64,000 bases of DNA, from positions 124,001-188,000 of the forward strand of contig NZ_BPPB01000005.1 of the NCBI RefSeq assembly GCF_019972835.1, in the 5' to 3' direction. Below the pieces are notes generated by a model. That model ran no database searches, was not told the DNA's origin, and was given only the letters and a program-made list of their open reading frames with translations. The first letter of the stretch is position 1. Each line of letters begins with the position of its first letter. Of the stretch, positions 15,814 to 24,820 are shown one piece after another. The position numbers and the translations under genes are program-made. The stretch is from Lactobacillus laiwuensis. Lineage in GTDB: Bacteria; Bacillota; Bacilli; Lactobacillales; Lactobacillaceae.

Positions 15814-15842
15814 TTGTTTTTTGGTTAATTGCATGCTAAAAT
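15814..15842 (+). promoter_or_regulatory. Promoter of the small RNA gene
   Basis: TTGTTT (15814-15819), 17-base spacer, and an extended -10 TGCTAAAAT ending at 15842. It lies just after the last dlt-operon gene and would start transcription near 15848, exactly where the structured RNA begins. Confidence 0.65.
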
Positions 15843-15846
15843 TCTG

Positions 15847-15973
15847 TTGTGTCACCATAGGGAAGTAGTCATTTTCTCCGGTAGCGAAAATGTAAGTTTC
15901 TATAATGTGGTCAGTAATGGTGGCACAAACACTGTGTGAGCTTAGTTCCGATGTTGGTGGAACTAGGCTTTTT
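15847..15973 (+). ncRNA. Unclassified structured small RNA, about 126 nt
   Basis: A self-contained unit of promoter, folded RNA and terminator, with no open frame. The outer stem pairs TTGTGTCACCAT (15846-15857) with ATGGTGGCACAA (about 15917-15928), one G-U pair. An inner perfect hairpin pairs CATTTTC with GAAAATG (about 15870-15892). The terminator stem is GCTTAGTTCC with GGAACTAGGC (15940-15967), followed by five T. I could not match it to a known riboswitch or RNA class. It could also be the leader of the gene now at 24113 from before the island arrived. Its last 86 bases recur exactly at 23953-24038. Confidence 0.6.
15888..15973 (+). repeat. 86-bp direct repeat, left copy (attL-like)
   Basis: Bases 15888-15973 and 23953-24038 are identical over 86 bp by direct reading. 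This copy is the 3' two-thirds of the small RNA and joins its intact 5' part. Bases just outside the repeat differ on both sides. Confidence 0.93.
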
Positions 15974-16034
15974 GTATACATGAAAATAATGATAGATACA
16001 TTTATAATGAGCAATAAAAATATAGGGGTTTTAT

Positions 16035-18704
16035 ATGAGCAATTTACGGGAAAAAGTATACACATTTGTAGAAAAAAACACAGAAAATTCTGAAGTCTGG
16101 CATCAAAATAATGCAAAGAAAATATCTGATCACTTTAATTGTAGTAGAAATTTGGTTTCACAATATTTAAATGAGTATTGGGAAAAAGGAGTTTTTGGAA
16201 AAATTGTTTCAAGGCCAGTACTCTTTTTCAAATTGCCACAAGTAGAGATTAATGCTAAAACATTTAAAAGCCTTCATGCGGCCAAAGTGTGGAATAGTAG
16301 CCACTCGGTTAGTCCTTTAGATGCCATTATTGGTAGTGAAAGAAGCTTATATCAAATAATCAGTCAAATTAAAGCGGCTATCCAATATCCCCCTCATGGC
16401 TTACCTATTTTGATAACTGGTGAAACTGGAACAGGAAAAAGCTATTTGGCACAGGTTATATACAAGCATTTACAGAAAATGAAATTTATAGCTAAAACTG
16501 CTAAATTTGTTTCAGTTAATTGTAGTGAATATTCAAACAATCCGGAACTCTTTTTATCAAATTTTTTTGGTTACGTGAAGGGTGCTTTTACTGGTGCTAC
16601 ACAAAATAATAAAGGCTTAGCAGAAATAGCTGATGGAGGGGTTTTATTTCTAGATGAAATTCATTCATTAAGTAAAGAGTGTCAAGAAAAGCTTTTTCAG
16701 TTTATGGATACCGGCAATTTTCATAGGCTTGGTGATAATGAGCACTGGTTTAAATCAAACTGTAGATTTGTGTTTGCTACTTCTGAAAATCCTGAAAGAA
16801 AAATCTTACCGACATTATTGCGTAGAATTCCTGTGAAAGTTTTTCTTCCAGCTTTTAATAAAAGAAGTGAACAAGAAAAGAAAGAATTGATCCAGTTTTT
16901 CTTAAAAAATGAACAAAAAAAGATAGGTAAAAAGCTTAATGTTACTAACAATTTGGTCAATTTTTTAATACATTATACTTTTAAAGGGAATGTAGGCGAT
17001 TTAAAAAACGTAATTCAACTTTCTTGTGCAAATGCTTTAATACAACAAGTTGAAGAAAGTGAATTAAAAATCACATTAATGGAGTTACCTGAAAAAGTGG
17101 GTTTTGAAAATTATAATGAATTAAAAAACACTAATAATTCTCGTTTTATTGCAGTCAGCGACTTAACCAAAAATGATCAAAAGAATTCAATAGAACATAT
17201 AATTACAGATTTATACGCAATAGATATCAAAAAGAAATCCAGTGAAAATCTGTTTGACTGTTATGAGAAGTATTTTAAAAAGCGGTTTATCAATATTTCC
17301 ATTTCTGATAGTGAAACATTAAATAGTTTTTTTGGACTTAAATTTCAACAGTTTACTAGGCATATTGAAGATGACTACAAGATTAGTGTTGATACATTTT
17401 TTTACAAAATTATCTTATATTTATTTGATAAAAATAACTATCATTATGACTTTAAGGAAGTTGATTTTCAGAAGTGGTCTGATTTTAAAAATGATGTTAA
17501 TCAGTATTTGGGATATGAGGTTGGCTTAGTAAGAGAATTCAAAAATGAAGTAGATTTGACGTCAAATGAGGGCGAAGAGTTACTATTTATAATATTGTTC
17601 AAATTGATGGTTGAAGAACATAAGTCTCAAAAAAGATTGTCGCTGATTGTTGCCCATGGTGCTAATACCGCTTCGTCAATTGCACAAACGGTTAATACTA
17701 TGGTTGGTGATTATATTTTTGATGCTATCGACATGTCACTAGATGTTACTAGTAAAGAAATTGCTCTACGTGTCAATAATTATTTGAATAAAAGAAAAAG
17801 TTTTACGGACTTATTGCTTCTAGTTGACATGGGATCGCTTGAAAAAATATCATCACAATTGGAAATAAGTAATAATAAAAATTTTGCTTTAATAACTAAT
17901 GTATCTACTGGAATAGCTTTAGATGTCGCAAACCAGATAAAACTAAAAGTTGATACAGCTTCAATTGTACAGAATGTGAAGAAAAATCAAACAATTGAGG
18001 TATTCTTTCAAAAATCTGTTAAAAAACAAGATATGATCGTTTGTACTTGTGAAAGTGGATTAGGAACAGCCATGAAATTAAAACAGATAATGGTAAAAAG
18101 TTTTCCTAAAAATTCTAAAATAGTAATAGATTCCTTTGATTACTATTCCATTGCTAAAGAGAATTACATTTCGGAGTTACGAAAAAATTATAATATTTTG
18201 TTTATAGTGGGAACATTAGATCCTCAAGTTAAAGGAGTAGCCTTCTTTTCAATAGAAGACTTGATTTTAGGTATAAATGTTAAAAAAATAACTAATAAAT
18301 TAGCTGTTTATTTTGATCAGAAGCAGCTTGAGACTATTAATAATAATATTTTAAGGAATTTTAGTCTTACCAATTTAACGGATCAACTAACAATTTTGAA
18401 TCCAACGAAATTATTAGAACAAGTGACGGATGCAATATATATTTTACAAACGAAACTAAATCTTTCTTTAAAAAACAATACTTGTTTTGGCCTGTATATT
18501 CATATTTGTTGTTTAATTGAAAGATTGGTCATGCAAAAAGGGATGGCAGATGAAATAAACTTAAGTAAAACAAATAGTAATGAATTTAAAAATTTTTATA
18601 AAGCATTTAAGAACTCATTTACTGTCGTTGAACAGTATTATAGTGTCGAAATACCAGAAATAGAAGTAAAATATGTCTATGACTACATCAAAGAAGCTTG
18701 CTAG
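16035..18704 (+). CDS. LevR-family sigma-54-dependent PTS-regulated activator
   Basis: 889 residues. Order: N-terminal helix-turn-helix region (1-65), AAA+ domain with Walker A GETGTGKS (129-136), the sigma-54 contact loop GAFTGA (183-188) and Walker B VLFLDEIH (203-210), a first PRD-like region (about 390-500), an EIIA-Man-like domain with His541 in VAHGANTASS, an EIIB-like domain with CTCESGLGTA (Cys670/Cys672), and a last PRD with His823 in YIHICCLIERL. The PRD and EII-like domains let PTS components control activity by phosphorylation in known LevR proteins. It directly precedes the -24/-12 promoter of the PTS operon it should activate. An AGGGG site precedes the ATG. Confidence 0.92.
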   Translation: MSNLREKVYTFVEKNTENSEVWHQNNAKKISDHFNCSRNLVSQYLNEYWEKGVFGKIVSRPVLFFKLPQVEINAKTFKSLHAAKVWNSSHSVSPLDAIIGSERSLYQIISQIKAAIQYPPHGLPILITGETGTGKSYLAQVIYKHLQKMKFIAKTAKFVSVNCSEYSNNPELFLSNFFGYVKGAFTGATQNNKGLAEIADGGVLFLDEIHSLSKECQEKLFQFMDTGNFHRLGDNEHWFKSNCRFVFATSENPERKILPTLLRRIPVKVFLPAFNKRSEQEKKELIQFFLKNEQKKIGKKLNVTNNLVNFLIHYTFKGNVGDLKNVIQLSCANALIQQVEESELKITLMELPEKVGFENYNELKNTNNSRFIAVSDLTKNDQKNSIEHIITDLYAIDIKKKSSENLFDCYEKYFKKRFINISISDSETLNSFFGLKFQQFTRHIEDDYKISVDTFFYKIILYLFDKNNYHYDFKEVDFQKWSDFKNDVNQYLGYEVGLVREFKNEVDLTSNEGEELLFIILFKLMVEEHKSQKRLSLIVAHGANTASSIAQTVNTMVGDYIFDAIDMSLDVTSKEIALRVNNYLNKRKSFTDLLLLVDMGSLEKISSQLEISNNKNFALITNVSTGIALDVANQIKLKVDTASIVQNVKKNQTIEVFFQKSVKKQDMIVCTCESGLGTAMKLKQIMVKSFPKNSKIVIDSFDYYSIAKENYISELRKNYNILFIVGTLDPQVKGVAFFSIEDLILGINVKKITNKLAVYFDQKQLETINNNILRNFSLTNLTDQLTILNPTKLLEQVTDAIYILQTKLNLSLKNNTCFGLYIHICCLIERLVMQKGMADEINLSKTNSNEFKNFYKAFKNSFTVVEQYYSVEIPEIEVKYVYDYIKEAC

Positions 18705-18722
18705 ATCAAGCTTCTTTTTTTT
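18691..18722 (+). terminator. Terminator of the activator gene
   Basis: AAGAAGCTTG (18691-18700) pairs perfectly with CAAGCTTCTT (18707-18716), followed by T residues. It overlaps the last codons of the activator gene and separates it from the sigma-54 promoter. Confidence 0.85.
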
Positions 18723-18736
18723 GGCACAGTTTTTGC
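18722..18736 (+). promoter_or_regulatory. Sigma-54 (-24/-12) promoter of the PTS operon
   Basis: TGGCAC (18722-18727), five bases, TTGC (18733-18736): an exact match to the sigma-54 consensus. It lies about 35 bases before the first EIIB start, directly behind the activator terminator. Expression should need RpoN and the LevR-type activator. Confidence 0.93.
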
Positions 18737-18771
18737 TTATATAAAAGTGTAACGTCTTTGGAGGTTTTCTT

Positions 18772-19260
18772 ATGACTGTTGTAATGGCGAGAATTGATAA
18801 CAGATTGCTTCATGGAATAATTGTCACACAATGGGCGCCAATTTCTAATGCTAACCGAGTTATGGTAATAGACAATGATATTGCGTCTGATGATATAGCG
18901 AAAGCCAGTATGCGTTTAGCTCGTCCAGTACATATGGCTGTTTCAATTATTTCTGAACAAACTGCTTTAAGAAATTTTACTAATGGACAATATAATCGTG
19001 AAAAAGTATTTGTAATTGTAAAAAAGCCAGATATTATTTTACGTCTCTTAAACGAAGGAATAGAAATCCCTTCATTAACTATTGGGTCAACGATTATAAG
19101 AAAAGATGCTGTCCGGCTTTCTAGTAGAGTATTTGCAACAAAGGAGGAACTTGAAATTTACCAGAAATTAGCACAAAAAGGTGTGGCGATTTCCGTTCAG
19201 TATGTTCCCGCTGATAAGCCTAAAGATATTACCGCAAAAATAAATGAAGAAGGGTTGTGA
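18772..19260 (+). CDS. PTS mannose-family EIIB subunit, first copy
   Basis: 162 residues, cytoplasmic phosphocarrier of a mannose-class PTS. The phosphorylated His is His14 in the start motif MARIDNRLLHGIIVTQW. The rest follows the EIIB-Man fold (VMVIDNDIASDD, AKASMRLARP, VFVIVKKPD). A TGGAGG site precedes the ATG. It is the first gene after the sigma-54 promoter and is separated from the rest of the PTS by the hydrolase gene. It differs substantially from the second EIIB at 21438. Confidence 0.93.
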   Translation: MTVVMARIDNRLLHGIIVTQWAPISNANRVMVIDNDIASDDIAKASMRLARPVHMAVSIISEQTALRNFTNGQYNREKVFVIVKKPDIILRLLNEGIEIPSLTIGSTIIRKDAVRLSSRVFATKEELEIYQKLAQKGVAISVQYVPADKPKDITAKINEEGL

Positions 19261-19312
19261 AATAATAGTTGAATTTGTTAATTAGCTAAATTAATTAAGA
19301 AAGTAGTGATAG

Positions 19313-21436
19313 ATGAAAATGTACTCAAACATAATTAATGAAACCATTAATCCCAATTTTAATATTAGTTTTATAAATAAAAAATTTAAAACAACTAACA
19401 ATTTTAGTTATTTTAAAAACAATTTAAATGAAAGAATAAGCTCTTTCTCTTATGATGTGTCAAATCAAAAAGTTTTAGGAAATATAGATATATATGGAGA
19501 AGTAAAGCAGCTAAATTTTTTTCAAGGAAATTTTTATGTAGAACAAAAGCCAGGTGTATGGGTTCATAAGAAATATACTACATCAAAGAATTTACACTTC
19601 GCAGTAATCATAAACGGAAAACAAATTAAATTTACTGACAAAAATCATAATTTTGATACTGACTTAATTGCGGACTCTTTACCAAGGTTCATTCATAGGT
19701 ATCAGGAATATAACATTGCTCTAATGCCTTTCTGTCCGATTCTGAAGGATAAAAAGCCTAGTATGCTCATATATCAGATATATATTGAGAACTTAACTGA
19801 TCAAGACTTAATTATTAACCAGTTTGAAATACCAAAATATCAAAACAAGTATTCAGATCAGTTTAATGTCATAGTGGCTCAAGACAATCTAGTTAATGAA
19901 AATGTTAAGCCGCATGAATGCAAAACTTTTTCCATTGGACTAATTGATCCCAATGCTTACAGTGAAATCAATATCTTTGAAAAAGCCGATACAGTTAAAT
20001 GGCTAAAAGATACAATTGAATACTATAAGAATATTTACGGGGATTTGCAACTGGAAGATAACAGGTTGCCGCATCTCTTTAATCGTGCAATATATCAAAG
20101 CCTATCGGCTTTTGCAGAGAACCAAAAAGGAGAAAGCGTTGGTAGTCATTGGGGAAGTACACCTGCAACTGAACAAATTTGGAACAAGGATATGTTTTAT
20201 TCGACATTGCCTTCCGTTTTCTTTGATGCTAGATTATGCCAAAAACAGATTTTATGGTTTACCAAATACGGTGTGAGATTCAAGAGTAAGAAATTTAAAG
20301 GTGGGATAGAACATTCTTTAAGTAATTCTATGTCAGCAATTATTCTTGCAGGACTTTATTATGAGTATACTAATGATCTTTCATTTTTTGTAAATCATCC
20401 GGTTATATTACAAAAAGCTCGCCAAATTATAGATACAGAAATCAGCACGAAAGTTCCAGGAGATGTGATGCTCTTTTCCTCTACTTGGATTAGTGATGCT
20501 TATTCATTAGGTAAATATCATACTGGTAGCAATATCTGTTTTTGGAAGGCATGTGATTCCCTAGCAAGAATCTATCAAGGTTTAGGAAAATTAGAACTTG
20601 CAAACTATTATGAAAAAATGGCCCGCAAAGTAAAAAAAGCCATTTTAGAAAATATGACTTTTAAAGGCCATTTTGGGGAACAGTTTTTGGAAGGAATTGG
20701 GGATCAAGAAAAAGAATTTTATGACGTCAATAATTATGATAAGCCGATTTTAAATCAAGGTATGATTTTTCTGACTGACGTTATTAAGGACCAAAAAATA
20801 GATTTAAAAATGCATGATGGTGAAGAATCAGACACTACGATGATTCCTTTTTACGGTTTTTTAGACTTAAAAGATCCGAAATATCAAAATTCTATGAAAT
20901 TTGCTGCAAGTACCTATAATCCAACCTATGGAGCAAATATTAGAGGAATACGTTGGGGAGATAAGTCCGGTGCAACCTTCCCTGGCTTCATCACTGTTCT
21001 TATGGGTTTTATCAATGATAAAGAACAAAGAACAAAGCAACTAAATGAATTATTACATCTGTCTGACCTTGATGGTTCATGGTGGTGGTGGCCATACGCC
21101 ATTAATGGCAAGCCTGGAGATGTTTATAGAGATATTGGCTGTGGTAAATGTGGTTGGGCCTCTGGAACATTCGTTAGCTTATTTGTTACACAATTTTTAG
21201 GCATACAAGTAAAAAACAACACTTTAACTATACAGCCACTGTCGCATTTTAATTATTGTTGGGAAAATGCCCATATAGGCAATATAACAGCAAATATTAG
21301 TTGCCACGATAACGAAATAATAATTACAAATCTTTCAGGCCATGACATAAATATCAGTCAATGTAACGAGAGTGAGCAATATTTGTTGCAATTAAAGGAT
21401 AAAAAAACTGTGAGTTTCAAAAGAAGTGAGAAGTAG
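19313..21436 (+). CDS. Putative six-hairpin glycoside hydrolase, family unassigned
   Basis: 707 residues, no signal peptide, so it should act in the cytoplasm on the sugar delivered by the PTS. Residues 1-230 look like an N-terminal beta-rich domain. Residues about 240-640 have the helical repeat character of an (alpha/alpha)6 barrel: TEQIWNKDMFYST, EHSLSNSMSAIILAGLYYEY, FYDVNNYDKPILNQGM and DLDGSWWWWPY. A small C-terminal beta domain follows. Overall it resembles six-hairpin glycosidases, but I cannot place it in a GH family; Asp/Glu residues in the motifs are catalytic candidates only. Its position between two EIIB genes ties it to this PTS. Confidence 0.65.
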   Translation: MKMYSNIINETINPNFNISFINKKFKTTNNFSYFKNNLNERISSFSYDVSNQKVLGNIDIYGEVKQLNFFQGNFYVEQKPGVWVHKKYTTSKNLHFAVIINGKQIKFTDKNHNFDTDLIADSLPRFIHRYQEYNIALMPFCPILKDKKPSMLIYQIYIENLTDQDLIINQFEIPKYQNKYSDQFNVIVAQDNLVNENVKPHECKTFSIGLIDPNAYSEINIFEKADTVKWLKDTIEYYKNIYGDLQLEDNRLPHLFNRAIYQSLSAFAENQKGESVGSHWGSTPATEQIWNKDMFYSTLPSVFFDARLCQKQILWFTKYGVRFKSKKFKGGIEHSLSNSMSAIILAGLYYEYTNDLSFFVNHPVILQKARQIIDTEISTKVPGDVMLFSSTWISDAYSLGKYHTGSNICFWKACDSLARIYQGLGKLELANYYEKMARKVKKAILENMTFKGHFGEQFLEGIGDQEKEFYDVNNYDKPILNQGMIFLTDVIKDQKIDLKMHDGEESDTTMIPFYGFLDLKDPKYQNSMKFAASTYNPTYGANIRGIRWGDKSGATFPGFITVLMGFINDKEQRTKQLNELLHLSDLDGSWWWWPYAINGKPGDVYRDIGCGKCGWASGTFVSLFVTQFLGIQVKNNTLTIQPLSHFNYCWENAHIGNITANISCHDNEIIITNLSGHDINISQCNESEQYLLQLKDKKTVSFKRSEK

Positions 21437-21437
21437 T

Positions 21438-21917
21438 ATGACAGTAGTATTAGCAAGAGTTGATCAGAGACTGGTTCACGGAGTAATAGTTAATGCTTGG
21501 TATCAGTACTTACAAGTCAACAGATTTATGGTTATTGATGATGAAGTTAGTAAAAATGAAAATATGAAATCAAGCATGAGAATTGTGAAGCCGACTGGTA
21601 CAGGAATGTCAATAATTGACACTGAAAAAGCGCTCAATAATTTCAAAGCTGGAAAATATGATAATCAGCGAGTACTTGTTCTGGTAAAAGAGCCAGAAAC
21701 TATAGTAAAAATGCTTGATGCAGGGATCAAAATACCCAAGGTGAATTTAGGAATAATTTTTAAATCGGAGGATCGTACGCAACTCACTAAATTTATTGCA
21801 TTAAATGAAAAAGAAAAAGCTGATTTAAATAAAATACATGAGTATGGTGTTCCGATAAAATTACAATTTGTTCCTAATGATCCTGAGAAAGATTATTTCG
21901 ATAAAAAAGGAGAATAA
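21438..21917 (+). CDS. PTS mannose-family EIIB subunit, second copy
   Basis: 159 residues starting MTVVLARVDQRLVHGVIVNAW, with phosphorylatable His14. The ATG at 21438, one base after the hydrolase stop, is preferred over an in-frame ATG inside the hydrolase gene because the family starts here. It lies 2 bases before EIIC, so this copy is the natural partner of the EIIC/EIID channel. Confidence 0.93.
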   Translation: MTVVLARVDQRLVHGVIVNAWYQYLQVNRFMVIDDEVSKNENMKSSMRIVKPTGTGMSIIDTEKALNNFKAGKYDNQRVLVLVKEPETIVKMLDAGIKIPKVNLGIIFKSEDRTQLTKFIALNEKEKADLNKIHEYGVPIKLQFVPNDPEKDYFDKKGE

Positions 21918-21919
21918 TA

Positions 21920-22711
21920 ATGGAGATTTTACAAGATATCCTGATCATTATTTTAGCTGGATACATGACTATGGATGAAGATGGGATAGTTTTATTGACC
22001 TATTTTCCCGTGATAGTCGGTTTGGCTACTGGATTAATTATGGGTGATTTACACACAGCTATGGTTGTTGCAGGTACATTCCAGTTAATGATGTTAGGAG
22101 TCGCAGCTTTAGGAGGAGCTTCGGTTCCTAATTATGGGCTAGCAACTATTGTAGGTGCATTTGTCGCCATTAGAACAGGTACAGGTTTAAAAACTGCCAT
22201 CGCTGTCGGCATACCTGTTGGCTTATTAGCAATTCAGTTAGAAGTTTTACGCAGAATTATTGCCAACTTTGTTGCTCATAAAATGCAGTCTCTTAATGAA
22301 GAAAAAAAGTGGAAGCAGATGTTACGTTGGGGATACGCAGGTCCCGTTTTATGTTTTGTAGAGACAGCTTTGCCTACAGCAATAGTAGTTTTAGTTGGAC
22401 CAGCTGCAATTAAAATGATTTTGAAATTTATACCTACTTGGATAACAGACGGATTAACAGTTGCCGGTGGCTTATTACCTGTAGTTGGTATTGCAATGTT
22501 GTTACACTATATGCCAGTCAAAAAGTTTTTACCTTTTCTAGTTGCGGGATTTGTTTTGGCAGCTTTTATCAAAATACCAATAATTGGTATAGCTTTATTA
22601 GGTTTAGCAGCAGCATACTGGTACTTTAATTCTGAGATTGACAAGAATAAATACAGCAAAAACCAAGCAGTAGCTAAAAATGATACAACTGGAGAAGATT
22701 ATGATGAATAA
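21920..22711 (+). CDS. PTS mannose-family EIIC subunit
   Basis: 263-residue membrane channel subunit with about seven to eight hydrophobic segments. Typical EIIC-Man/Sor features include DLHTAMVVAGTFQLMMLGV and GGASVPNYG. An AAGGAG site precedes the ATG. It overlaps EIID by 11 bases. The substrate cannot be told from sequence. Confidence 0.92.
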   Translation: MEILQDILIIILAGYMTMDEDGIVLLTYFPVIVGLATGLIMGDLHTAMVVAGTFQLMMLGVAALGGASVPNYGLATIVGAFVAIRTGTGLKTAIAVGIPVGLLAIQLEVLRRIIANFVAHKMQSLNEEKKWKQMLRWGYAGPVLCFVETALPTAIVVLVGPAAIKMILKFIPTWITDGLTVAGGLLPVVGIAMLLHYMPVKKFLPFLVAGFVLAAFIKIPIIGIALLGLAAAYWYFNSEIDKNKYSKNQAVAKNDTTGEDYDE

Positions 22712-23528
22712 AAATGTTGAAAACAAATCAAGCTACCACGTTACAAAAAAAGATTTGACGTGGGCATCGTTACGATTTAACTGGATATGCGTAAATCTAT
22801 TTAATTATGAGTCACAACTAGGTCCCTCACTAGTATGGTCTATGGCTCCACTATTGCGGAAAATTTATCCGAAAGACTCAGATTACCAGGCCTCACTAAA
22901 AAATCACTTTAACTACTTTAATACTACTCCGTATTTAGCAAATATAGTGCTAGGTACCACGGTAGCTATGGAAGAAAAAGATGGAATCAAGGCATTGCCA
23001 ACAGTTCAATCTTTTAAAACGAGTATTATGGGTCCGTTAGCGGGTATTGGTGATACAATATTCTGGGTACTTTGGCCCACTATTATGGGATCAATTGCTG
23101 GATATATGGCTTTGCAAGGCAATCCGCTTGGAGCAATAATTTGGTTTTTAGTTAATATTTTATTTAATGTCATGAAGGTCTGGCTGTACCATGTTGGCTA
23201 TTCATCTGGAACAAGACTAATTGACACTTTAGGAGATAAGATAAATACTTTTACCGAAGCTGCATCAGTAATGGGGGTCACAGTTATAGGTGCCTTAGTT
23301 GCTACAGTAGTTAAAGTTTCAGTACCATATGTCTTTAAGTTTGGTAAAGTATCAATGAATATTCAAACAGACATTTTAGATAAAATAATGCCAGCATTAT
23401 TACCAGCTCTGTTTACTTTCTTTATTTATAAATTATTGGATAATAAAAAATGGACTCCGACAAAGATTATATTTTTAGTAATTTTAATAGCACTCGGTGG
23501 AACATTTTTAGGAATTTTTAAAGCTTAA
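22701..23528 (+). CDS. PTS mannose-family EIID subunit
   Basis: 275 residues. The conserved N-terminal amphipathic region (LTWASLRFNW, NYESQLGPSLVWSM) and the segment MGPLAGIGDTIFW are diagnostic of EIID. C-terminal membrane helices follow. The start at 22701 is chosen because GGAGAAG lies just upstream. It works with EIIC to form the transporter unique to this PTS class. Confidence 0.92.
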   Translation: MMNKNVENKSSYHVTKKDLTWASLRFNWICVNLFNYESQLGPSLVWSMAPLLRKIYPKDSDYQASLKNHFNYFNTTPYLANIVLGTTVAMEEKDGIKALPTVQSFKTSIMGPLAGIGDTIFWVLWPTIMGSIAGYMALQGNPLGAIIWFLVNILFNVMKVWLYHVGYSSGTRLIDTLGDKINTFTEAASVMGVTVIGALVATVVKVSVPYVFKFGKVSMNIQTDILDKIMPALLPALFTFFIYKLLDNKKWTPTKIIFLVILIALGGTFLGIFKA

Positions 23529-23537
23529 GGTTATTGA

Positions 23538-23954
23538 ATGGATAGAAAAATTGTAATTGCTTCACATCATGCTATGGCTAAGGGTATTGAGGATACTCTA
23601 AAGTATTTGACCCATACAGATCTTGATATTTGTGTATTATGTGCATACATGGAAAACAAAAAAATTGATTCAGAAGTTGCAAATGTAATGAGTAAATTTA
23701 AAAAAGAAGATGAGGTCTTCATTTTTACGGATATTGCATCTGGTAGTGTGAACCAAAAATTTTATAAATATATTAATCGACCGCATACCCACATAATAGC
23801 TGGAATGAATTTGCCTATTATAATGAGTATAGCTTTAAATAGTTCGCAGGAATATTTTAGTGAAGAAGCAATCAAGAAGTTAGTTAACCAAGCAAAAGAC
23901 TCTTTGGTTTATGTTAACCAGAGTAAAAAAAGCCTGGATAAAGAAGACGAATAA
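23538..23954 (+). CDS. PTS mannose-family EIIA subunit
   Basis: 138 residues. The phosphorylated His is His10 in IVIASHHAMAKG. The FIFTDIASGSVNQ segment corresponds to the conserved TD-GGS loop of EIIA-Man. It is the last gene of the operon; its stop codon touches the right 86-bp repeat, whose terminator hairpin now ends the operon. Confidence 0.9.
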   Translation: MDRKIVIASHHAMAKGIEDTLKYLTHTDLDICVLCAYMENKKIDSEVANVMSKFKKEDEVFIFTDIASGSVNQKFYKYINRPHTHIIAGMNLPIIMSIALNSSQEYFSEEAIKKLVNQAKDSLVYVNQSKKSLDKEDE

Positions 23955-24038
23955 ATGTAAGTTTCTATAATGTGGTCAGTAATGGTGGCACAAACACTGT
24001 GTGAGCTTAGTTCCGATGTTGGTGGAACTAGGCTTTTT
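23953..24038 (+). repeat. 86-bp direct repeat, right copy (attR-like), with terminator
   Basis: Exact copy of 15888-15973 lacking the 5' part of the small RNA. It begins within the EIIA stop codon and contains the terminator hairpin (about 24005-24038). That hairpin probably serves the PTS operon and insulates the downstream DUF975 gene. Confidence 0.93.
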
Positions 24039-24112
24039 TAGTGTTTTCTTTGCTATCTGTGATTGCTAGGGGGTAGAATATATTTAATATATACTAGATA
24101 AGGAGATAAGTT

Positions 24113-24820
24113 ATGAACAGAGCAGAACTAAAATTAGAAGCTAAGAATCAACTGCGTCATAACTGGGGCTGGGCTATTAGTATTGGTTTCGTAATGACGC
24201 TATTTGTTGGTTTCTTTTTTGCCAGACCAGTAGTAAATGGTTCGCTTAAGACTGTGAATAGTGTGAATGATGTCATGGGAACTGGCTCAATTGATTCGCT
24301 GTTTAAGCCAGCATTTTGGGCAGGACAATTTGGTCCTGATACGGGATTAACCATTATTGGCAACTTTTTCATGTTGAGTATGGTGGTCACTTTCTTACAC
24401 TTTGCTCGTGGAGAAAGACTAGGCTTTTTTAAAGGTATTTTTTCTGCTTTTACTGATGGCCGGTTTGTACCGGAATTTTTGAATTATCTTTGTGGGTATA
24501 TTTTTCAATTTCTGTGGTCTCTATTATTAGTTATCCCAGGCTTAATTAAGTCTTATTCTTATGCCATGACGCCATATATTGTTAATGACTTAGTAGAAAG
24601 TGGACAAGAAGTTCACGCAACAACAGCGATTACTGCAAGTCGCCAGTTAATGAACGGGCATAAATGGGAATTATTTGTATTAAATTTAAGTTTTATTGGC
24701 TGGTATCTTTTGAGTGTACTAACTTTAGGCATTGGTTATATTTGGTTAGTTCCTTACGAGCAGACAACTAAAGCTAATTTTTACCGCAGGCTAGCCGGCG
24801 ATCGTTATTTAAAAAAATAA
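24113..24820 (+). CDS. DUF975 integral membrane protein
   Basis: 235 residues starting MNRAELKLEAKNQLRHNWGW, the typical opening of DUF975 proteins, with about four to five hydrophobic segments. The core includes LLVIPGLIKSYSYAMTPYIV. Family function is unknown; members are common in lactobacilli and streptococci. AAGGAG precedes the ATG. Before the island arrived this gene probably lay directly behind the small RNA at 15847, so the two may have been linked. Confidence 0.88.
   Translation: MNRAELKLEAKNQLRHNWGWAISIGFVMTLFVGFFFARPVVNGSLKTVNSVNDVMGTGSIDSLFKPAFWAGQFGPDTGLTIIGNFFMLSMVVTFLHFARGERLGFFKGIFSAFTDGRFVPEFLNYLCGYIFQFLWSLLLVIPGLIKSYSYAMTPYIVNDLVESGQEVHATTAITASRQLMNGHKWELFVLNLSFIGWYLLSVLTLGIGYIWLVPYEQTTKANFYRRLAGDRYLKK

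Follow-up and report, generated by a model that had tools for sequence, protein, structure and literature searches.

A sugar phosphotransferase operon directly behind a conserved small-RNA gene in Lactobacillus laiwuensis: a probable single capture, with no known recombinase

The stretch of DNA analysed here (the window, 64,000 nucleotides of Lactobacillus laiwuensis; assembly GCF_019972835.1, contig NZ_BPPB01000005.1, positions 124,001 to 188,000) contains a complete operon for a mannose-class sugar phosphotransferase system (Man-PTS), which lies between two copies of a direct repeat that are identical over 86 bp (15888-15973 and 23953-24038, with a spacing of 8065 bp). The left copy forms the 3' two-thirds of a small-RNA gene, whereas the right copy is a 3' fragment of that gene. 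The explanation that we favour, with moderate confidence, is the one-off capture of an operon from outside, in the course of which the 3' end of the RNA gene was duplicated and took the place of the operon's terminator. According to this proposal, a complete seven-gene Man-PTS operon would have entered once behind a stand-alone small-RNA gene in an ancestor of the Lactobacillus group to which L. kullabergensis, a species of the honey-bee gut, belongs. The last 86 bp of the RNA gene would have been duplicated, with the intact gene kept upstream, and the downstream duplicate would have replaced the terminator of the operon directly behind the stop codon of IIA. The likely route would be that, while a linear operon fragment was taken up, a junction of the illegitimate or microhomology type formed or the template was switched, and no recombinase would be needed for it. 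The insertion would later have remained whole in two genomes and been reduced to its IIA tail by one shared deletion in two others, while a further genome retains only a decayed relic and another has lost it cleanly.

The original prediction, made from the letters of the window, had described an exact 86-bp repeat enclosing a complete sigma-54-controlled sugar operon, and both the coordinates and the seven genes were confirmed. The genes all read in one direction and encode a sigma-54 activator, a IIB, a glycosidase-like protein, a second IIB, and then IIC, IID and IIA. It also holds that an intact RNA gene, with promoter, fold and terminator, is completed by the left copy and that the right copy is only its 3' fragment; the right copy has neither the promoter nor the 5' half of the gene, with its 5' hairpin. 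Of the sharp edges ascribed to the repeat, the right copy does begin at the IIA stop codon, the AA of this TAA being its first two bases and common to both copies, but the exact match over 86 of 86 positions is particular to this genome. Similarly, the GC content of the island (31.8%) is lower than that of the left flank (39.0%), the right flank (36.5%) and the whole window (34.8%), as its description as an AT-rich block implies, but the contrast is modest. Within the 2.05-Mb genome the two copies are the only matches to the repeat, apart from one of 17 nt (E 0.996); the plasmid and phage collections searched contained no match to the 86 bp, and viral contigs no exact match to its 22-nt core. 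These searches exclude that the repeat is a generic terminator sequence. As the assembly is a draft in 44 contigs, the exact repeat might be suspected to be an assembly error. However, the island was found again between the same RNA and fragment in a second genome (G030, taken as L. kullabergensis Biut2), which shows that it is no artefact, relics of it are present in three further genomes (G019, G028, and G017), and 86 exact bases cannot arise by chance, so that error and chance can practically be dismissed.

The insertion had been predicted to lie at the 3' end of a small-RNA gene, and that this gene is real is borne out by the wide distribution of the gene and by compensatory changes in its pairing. 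Among 75 genomes of the genus, the RNA was matched in 64 by a DNA search (in G040 by only about 30 bp) and in 67 by a covariance model (E ≤ 1); with the weak or false hits in G006 (E 0.512), G040 and G063 left out of the latter, a credible gene is present in 64 genomes, including 59 of the 60 of good quality. A family-wide search of 301 genomes matched it in 19, of which 15 belong to the genus, and the four matches outside it (E 0.0017-0.0099) are weak and not credible. The 64 DNA-matched genomes without G040 provided 63 RNA genes for alignment. The promoter string TGCTAAAAT is found exactly in 32 of these genes and in a looser form in 57. The gene of the window has a fold z score of -3.4 and a terminator of 13 pairs. 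The pairing analysis was based upon 58 sequences, as the identical rows G025, G051, G020, and G059 and the sequence of G045 (which has an N and a poor 5' end) were omitted. In this alignment 97.9% of the pair cells were standard, and changes on both sides were observed in 15 of the 29 pairs; these include all seven pairs of the long-range stem, which constitute the strongest structural support. None of 500 shuffles reached any of five measures, and slid structures gave only 35-47%, although kinship alone can outdo alignment shuffles of this kind. The loop of the RNA reads CUCC in 49 of the 63 genes and CUAC in eight, and the CUCC loop could pair with ribosome-binding sites. The RNA is absent from Rfam 15, where it had no match at the gathering level and otherwise a single chance match (E 2.1), and no tRNA or tmRNA gene was found in the window. 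On these comparisons, it is a structured RNA of the genus Lactobacillus with good support, which is present in single copy, has a strongly conserved terminator and is a candidate for a new family. Additional weak matches of the model in G028, G063, G030, and G019, which represent one common sequence, were considered as paralogues and rejected; in G028 and G030 this sequence lies inside a dehydrogenase-like coding sequence. The model matches in G040, G024, G041, and on contig C13 of G008 resemble the RNA in the terminator only, and that on contig C8 of G008 is a diverged copy of the small RNA itself.

Across the relatives the RNA gene stays next to the dlt genes, which are responsible for the alanylation of teichoic acids. 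Because the dlt side is constant while the right-hand neighbour changes, the RNA gene looks stand-alone. A search of related genomes for an empty site, with the RNA directly before the DUF975 gene, was positive: DUF975 follows the RNA after about 31-88 bp at 32 of 62 loci in relatives, and such empty sites are a general mark of a genomic island. At the empty site of G025, the RNA is followed by the same sequence that comes after the right copy in the window, with the promoter-like site of DUF975. At three other loci (G028, G019, and G017) DUF975 is found 373-388 bp after the RNA, and at that of G030 the whole operon separates the two. No DUF975 is present within 1.5 kb at 26 loci, of which one lies on a contig that ends 894 bp downstream, and these loci, having the RNA yet no DUF975, rule out that the RNA is a leader of this gene; DUF975 has a promoter-like site of its own. 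Where the next open reading frames (ORFs) were read at loci of this kind (18 cases), eight open with a convergent ORF of one family, as judged by eye, which is an MFS transporter by Pfam at locus L062. Variation is general in the region to the right of dlt: loci L055, L056, L057, L063, L066, L068, L071, L072, and L073 have about 3-9 kb of additional DNA between DUF975 and a small minus-strand gene downstream of it.

The relatives also contain the insertion in other states. Among the 75 genomes of the genus the whole operon is kept only in that of the window (G000) and in G030, and the glycosidase-like protein was matched in three, the third (G032) at only 38%. The window, G030, G019, and G028 have the same left end of the insert. 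In the last two, it is joined to the last codons of IIA, which are followed by the fragment, and the junction is the same in both; by reading, it would represent a single internal deletion common to both, which removed about 7.8 kb at a short match, TTTAT. In G017, a decayed but recognisable left insert end and a decayed IIA tail are present together with a fragment in which many bases are changed. This relic was spotted by eye and then tested against shuffles: the two insert ends gave local scores of 47 and 44, compared with maxima of 37 and 33 in 500 shuffles, and the fragment, when aligned over its full length with the G028 copy, scored 79, whereas the best of 1000 shuffles reached 57. The G017 fragment has drifted widely and its terminator hairpin still folds, which disfavours the idea that the right fragment acts in the mRNA as a decoy for the partners of the RNA. 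Lastly, G025 has one intact small-RNA gene that runs directly into the sequence following the right copy of the window. This genome is 98% identical to G028 to the right of the site and is grouped with G019 and G028 by rpoB; its clean state would probably have resulted from homologous recombination between the two copies, leaving a single intact RNA gene. Weak matches aside, second copies of the RNA occur in four of the 75 genomes and all belong to one insertion. Recent or ongoing movement of the element is not supported by these results, as the insertion is common to four genomes, whole or in its deletion form, and a fifth has a decayed relic. A single group of bacteria thus allows empty, full, deleted, decayed and clean states of one site to be compared.

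In the tree based upon the rpoB region, G000 grouped with G030, and G019, G028, and G025 grouped together, both with a support of 1.000. If it was inherited, the insertion would be at least as old as both of these groups, and it would be older if its presence in G017 is vertical as well. The two copies of the repeat are 91.9% identical within G028, 93.0% within G019 and 94.3% within G030, compared with 100% in the window genome. Additionally, the 5' letters of the left copy in the window are those of the right copies of G019 and G028, whereas letters of left copies are found in the window's right copy. Since the copies are only 92-94% identical in three other genomes and the letters are mixed in this one, the complete identity in the window is best read as later homogenisation, most likely by gene conversion, and it is no sign of recent integration. 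A perfect repeat that by itself would suggest a young insertion belongs here, on this evidence, to an old one.

The probable source of the operon is indicated by its distribution outside the genus. In a sample of 397 genomes of the family, the glycosidase-like protein was matched (E ≤ 1e-40) in four, viz. the window's own genome and three from other genera (61, 41, and 40% identity), and a scan of named genomes found it in two Enterococcus at 44%, in another gene order. The operon with the 61% protein (locus L102, from another genus) agrees with that of the window in all seven genes and in their order, with 82% identity for IIC and 85% for IID. No match to the small RNA was found there; by reading, a hairpin and T-run of its own follow IIA. 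As this related operon has the same gene set and its own terminator, the captured unit would be the operon as such, and the fragment would occupy the place of the terminator. The origin of the fragment is suggested by a marker of one nucleotide. The form TAATGTGGTCAG is present in six of the 63 native RNA genes, all from this Lactobacillus group, and all five right copies have the marker (TAATGTGG). Its presence in the fragment and, among native genes, only in those of this group argues that the fragment derives from the lineage's own RNA gene.

No recombinase was detected that could account for the insertion, in agreement with the original prediction. Pfam named none among the seven island genes; in the window's own genome, Phage_integrase had four matches, on contigs C1 and C3 and none on the contig of the window (C5), and Resolvase had no match, other kinds of transposases not being part of the genome-wide searches. 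In the Islander description (PMC4383910), an RNA gene accompanied by a fragment is the signature of an island and an integrase is required, and another paper names tRNA genes as hot spots for prophages (PMC13192938). The arrangement in the window resembles the tRNA/tmRNA islands of Islander, as there presented, in its intact RNA gene with a co-oriented 3' fragment downstream, in a spacing within 2-200 kb, in its clean empty sites and in its lower GC content. It differs from them in that the target is a small RNA and neither a tRNA nor a tmRNA gene, that no integrase lies inside, that the cargo is exactly one operon with the fragment, probably its terminator, directly behind the last stop codon, and that the insertion dates from long ago and is the sole one of its kind detected. 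The RNA 3' end could nevertheless have been the target of an island or satellite with an integrase, in the way that tRNA and tmRNA genes are targeted, the attP of the element carrying the 86 bp and the integrase being since lost or acting in trans. This possibility would agree with the Islander-like layout, including a length above 2 kb, and with the start of the fragment, which lies at the same place in all four genomes with recognisable copies. We consider it unlikely, however, as the seven genes fill the interval and no integrase or remnant of one was seen between the copies, the L102 operon of the same gene content has no integrase by Pfam among the eight flanking ORFs tested, the 86 bp and their core were unmatched in the phage, plasmid and viral sequences, and no second cassette with this layout was found in the genus. 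What favours capture over it is the gene content, together with the occurrence of a donor-like operon, a fragment of local origin and the absence of any other cassette with the same ends. Structure alone cannot separate a vanished integrase from illegitimate capture with an 86-bp duplication. A layout that serves as the signature of an integrase is seen here to bound an operon without one. If excision were live, the circular junction would read IIA stop, 86 bp, GTATACATG.

A number of observations weigh against capture followed by simple inheritance. The action of an integrase and its subsequent loss would give the same end structure, and for an illegitimate event it is neat that a duplication of 86 bp should have both junctions near functional borders, viz. 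the IIA stop and the T-run. The marker consists of one nucleotide only, and a copy borne by the element could have been overwritten by gene conversion. The genome G066 (54% complete), which is 99.0% identical to G017 in the rpoB region, has an empty site, and this argues against a purely vertical history for G017; the clean site of G025 could be an imported empty allele. The trees based upon dlt, DUF975 and the downstream genes group these genomes otherwise than rpoB does, and the tree for the concatenated dlt, downstream and rpoB sequences pairs G030 with G019 and G028 with G025, conflicts which imply that species may have exchanged alleles. The island shows 95.7% identity between G000 and G030, whereas the 750 bases to the left of the RNA gene are only 88-92% identical, so that some transfer of the island between species may have occurred. 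DUF975 is 99.3% identical between these genomes, compared with 90.4% for the downstream EIIC-hydrolase genes, and this block of identity is a recombination tract that starts at the right repeat. The tree conflicts and these differences would suit integration or exchange of the Campbell type, in which a circle or fragment already bearing the 86-bp end entered by homologous recombination and full, deleted and empty alleles were passed among species. However, this would account for the spread of the fragment and not for its first creation, the island is only slightly more similar than the whole dlt side (94.0%), and the right copies differ between G000 and G030. As an alternative to capture by the lineage itself, it appears decidedly improbable. 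In addition to these points, it was observed that the dlt proteins of G066 (locus L042) are more distant when compared with G017 (L040), which may be due to recombination or to a mixed metagenome bin.

The suggestion that the 3' ends of small RNAs are general exchange points for PTS cassettes did not find support. Six 20-kb stretches around other IIA-like matches in the window's own genome contained no comparable repeat among pairs of at least 35 nt, and these stretches represent a small part of the Man operons expected in a Firm-5 genome. A 73-nt exact pair near other PTS regions was rejected as consisting of two tRNA-Gln genes, and further repeats in such regions (300-nt pairs at 72-83%, a 49-nt family and a 37-nt pair) include none that is both exact and long. 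The search for other cassettes beside the same RNA yielded one, in G053, which is unrelated and without a repeat. In this genome a different sigma-54 Man-PTS cluster, containing a glycosidase, comes first after the RNA (activator 37% and IIA 27% identical), and the ORFs next to it, of about 1800-2800 aa, resemble surface-protein genes by eye. Such DNA extends over about 83 kb (L191-L194, L129, and L130), the conserved block downstream begins only after about 84 kb, and DUF975 was not found in the stretches in between. At the far end of the cluster no RNA fragment and no match to Phage_integrase were detected, serine recombinases not having been searched for there. According to Ellegaard et al. 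(2015; PMC4449606), complete Man operons number at least 15 in L. kullabergensis and 16 in L. kimbladii. As Man-PTS clusters are so numerous in Firm-5 lactobacilli, the G053 cluster is weak evidence for a preferred site. That the RNA 3' end is a reversible docking point for operons, at which no integrase acts, a copy of the terminator is borrowed, recombination removes the operon again and leaves the RNA gene intact, as in G025, and species exchange full, deleted and empty alleles, is a speculation that we regard as doubtful.

The study of Ellegaard et al. also describes Man-PTS islands of Firm-5 as whole clusters, with glycosidases and regulators, that are gained and lost. The present case concerns the bacteria to which G030 belongs and the same class of transporter; the passages of that study consulted mention neither an insertion point nor an RNA gene, and neither a repeat nor a relic, whereas here the gain is mapped to the base together with the later loss. 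The literature searched, mostly titles and the openings of abstracts, contained nothing on this small RNA or insertion. The features of the window are collected in Table 1.

Table 1. Features of the insertion and its flanks, in coordinates of the window
Feature	Position	Strand	Remarks	Basis
Small-RNA promoter	15814..15842	+	TTGTTT, 17 nt, TAAAAT, extended -10 TG	by reading
Intact small-RNA gene	15846..15973	+	5' end approximate; long-range stem, CUCC hairpin, terminator hairpin	
Left copy of 86-bp repeat	15888..15973	+	3' part of small-RNA gene	repeat search
Left insert end	15974..16034	+	promoter-like site at 15980-16008, ahead of activator gene	
Sigma-54-dependent activator	16035..18704	+	AAA+, EIIA-man-like and PRD domains	Pfam
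Terminator-like hairpin	18690..18717	+	at end of activator gene	
Putative -24/-12 promoter element	18721..18736	+	TTGGCACAGTTTTTGC, TTGGCAC-N5-TTGC, before first IIB	by reading only
PTS IIB, first copy	18772..19260	+	sorbose subfamily	
Glycosidase-like protein	19313..21436	+	707 aa	
PTS IIB, second copy	21426..21917	+		
PTS IIC	21920..22711	+		
PTS IID	22680..23528	+		
PTS IIA	23538..23954	+	stop codon overlaps right repeat	
Right copy of 86-bp repeat	23953..24038	+	3' fragment of RNA gene, probably operon terminator	
Promoter-like site of DUF975	24050..24079	+	native right flank	
DUF975 gene	24113..24820	+	direct neighbour of RNA at empty sites	

Man-PTS operons controlled by a sigma-54 activator with PRD domains are of the LevR/ManR type. 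The operon in the window shows the defining features of this class, viz. an AAA+/PRD activator, a -24/-12 promoter (identified by reading only), all four EII functions and an rpoN gene, which was found elsewhere in the genome. The element at 18721-18736 is presumably the -24/-12 promoter, being assigned by its likeness to the consensus. The operon resembles the LevR/ManR type in its activator gene, this promoter and its IIA, IIB, IIC, and IID components, and differs from it in having two IIB genes, an unclassified glycosidase-like protein of 707 aa and a terminator that would be derived from an RNA gene. For the activator, the best NCBIfam model is DagR, with a score far under the cut-off. The sole family match of the 707-aa protein is GH125, below threshold, and no relative of it was found in PDB by sequence; it may possibly represent an undescribed glycosidase family linked to Man-PTS. 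To the right of the operon, between positions 24035 and 24750 of the window, DUF975 is 99% identical to L. kullabergensis, and the next 1.5 kb are 84-89% identical.

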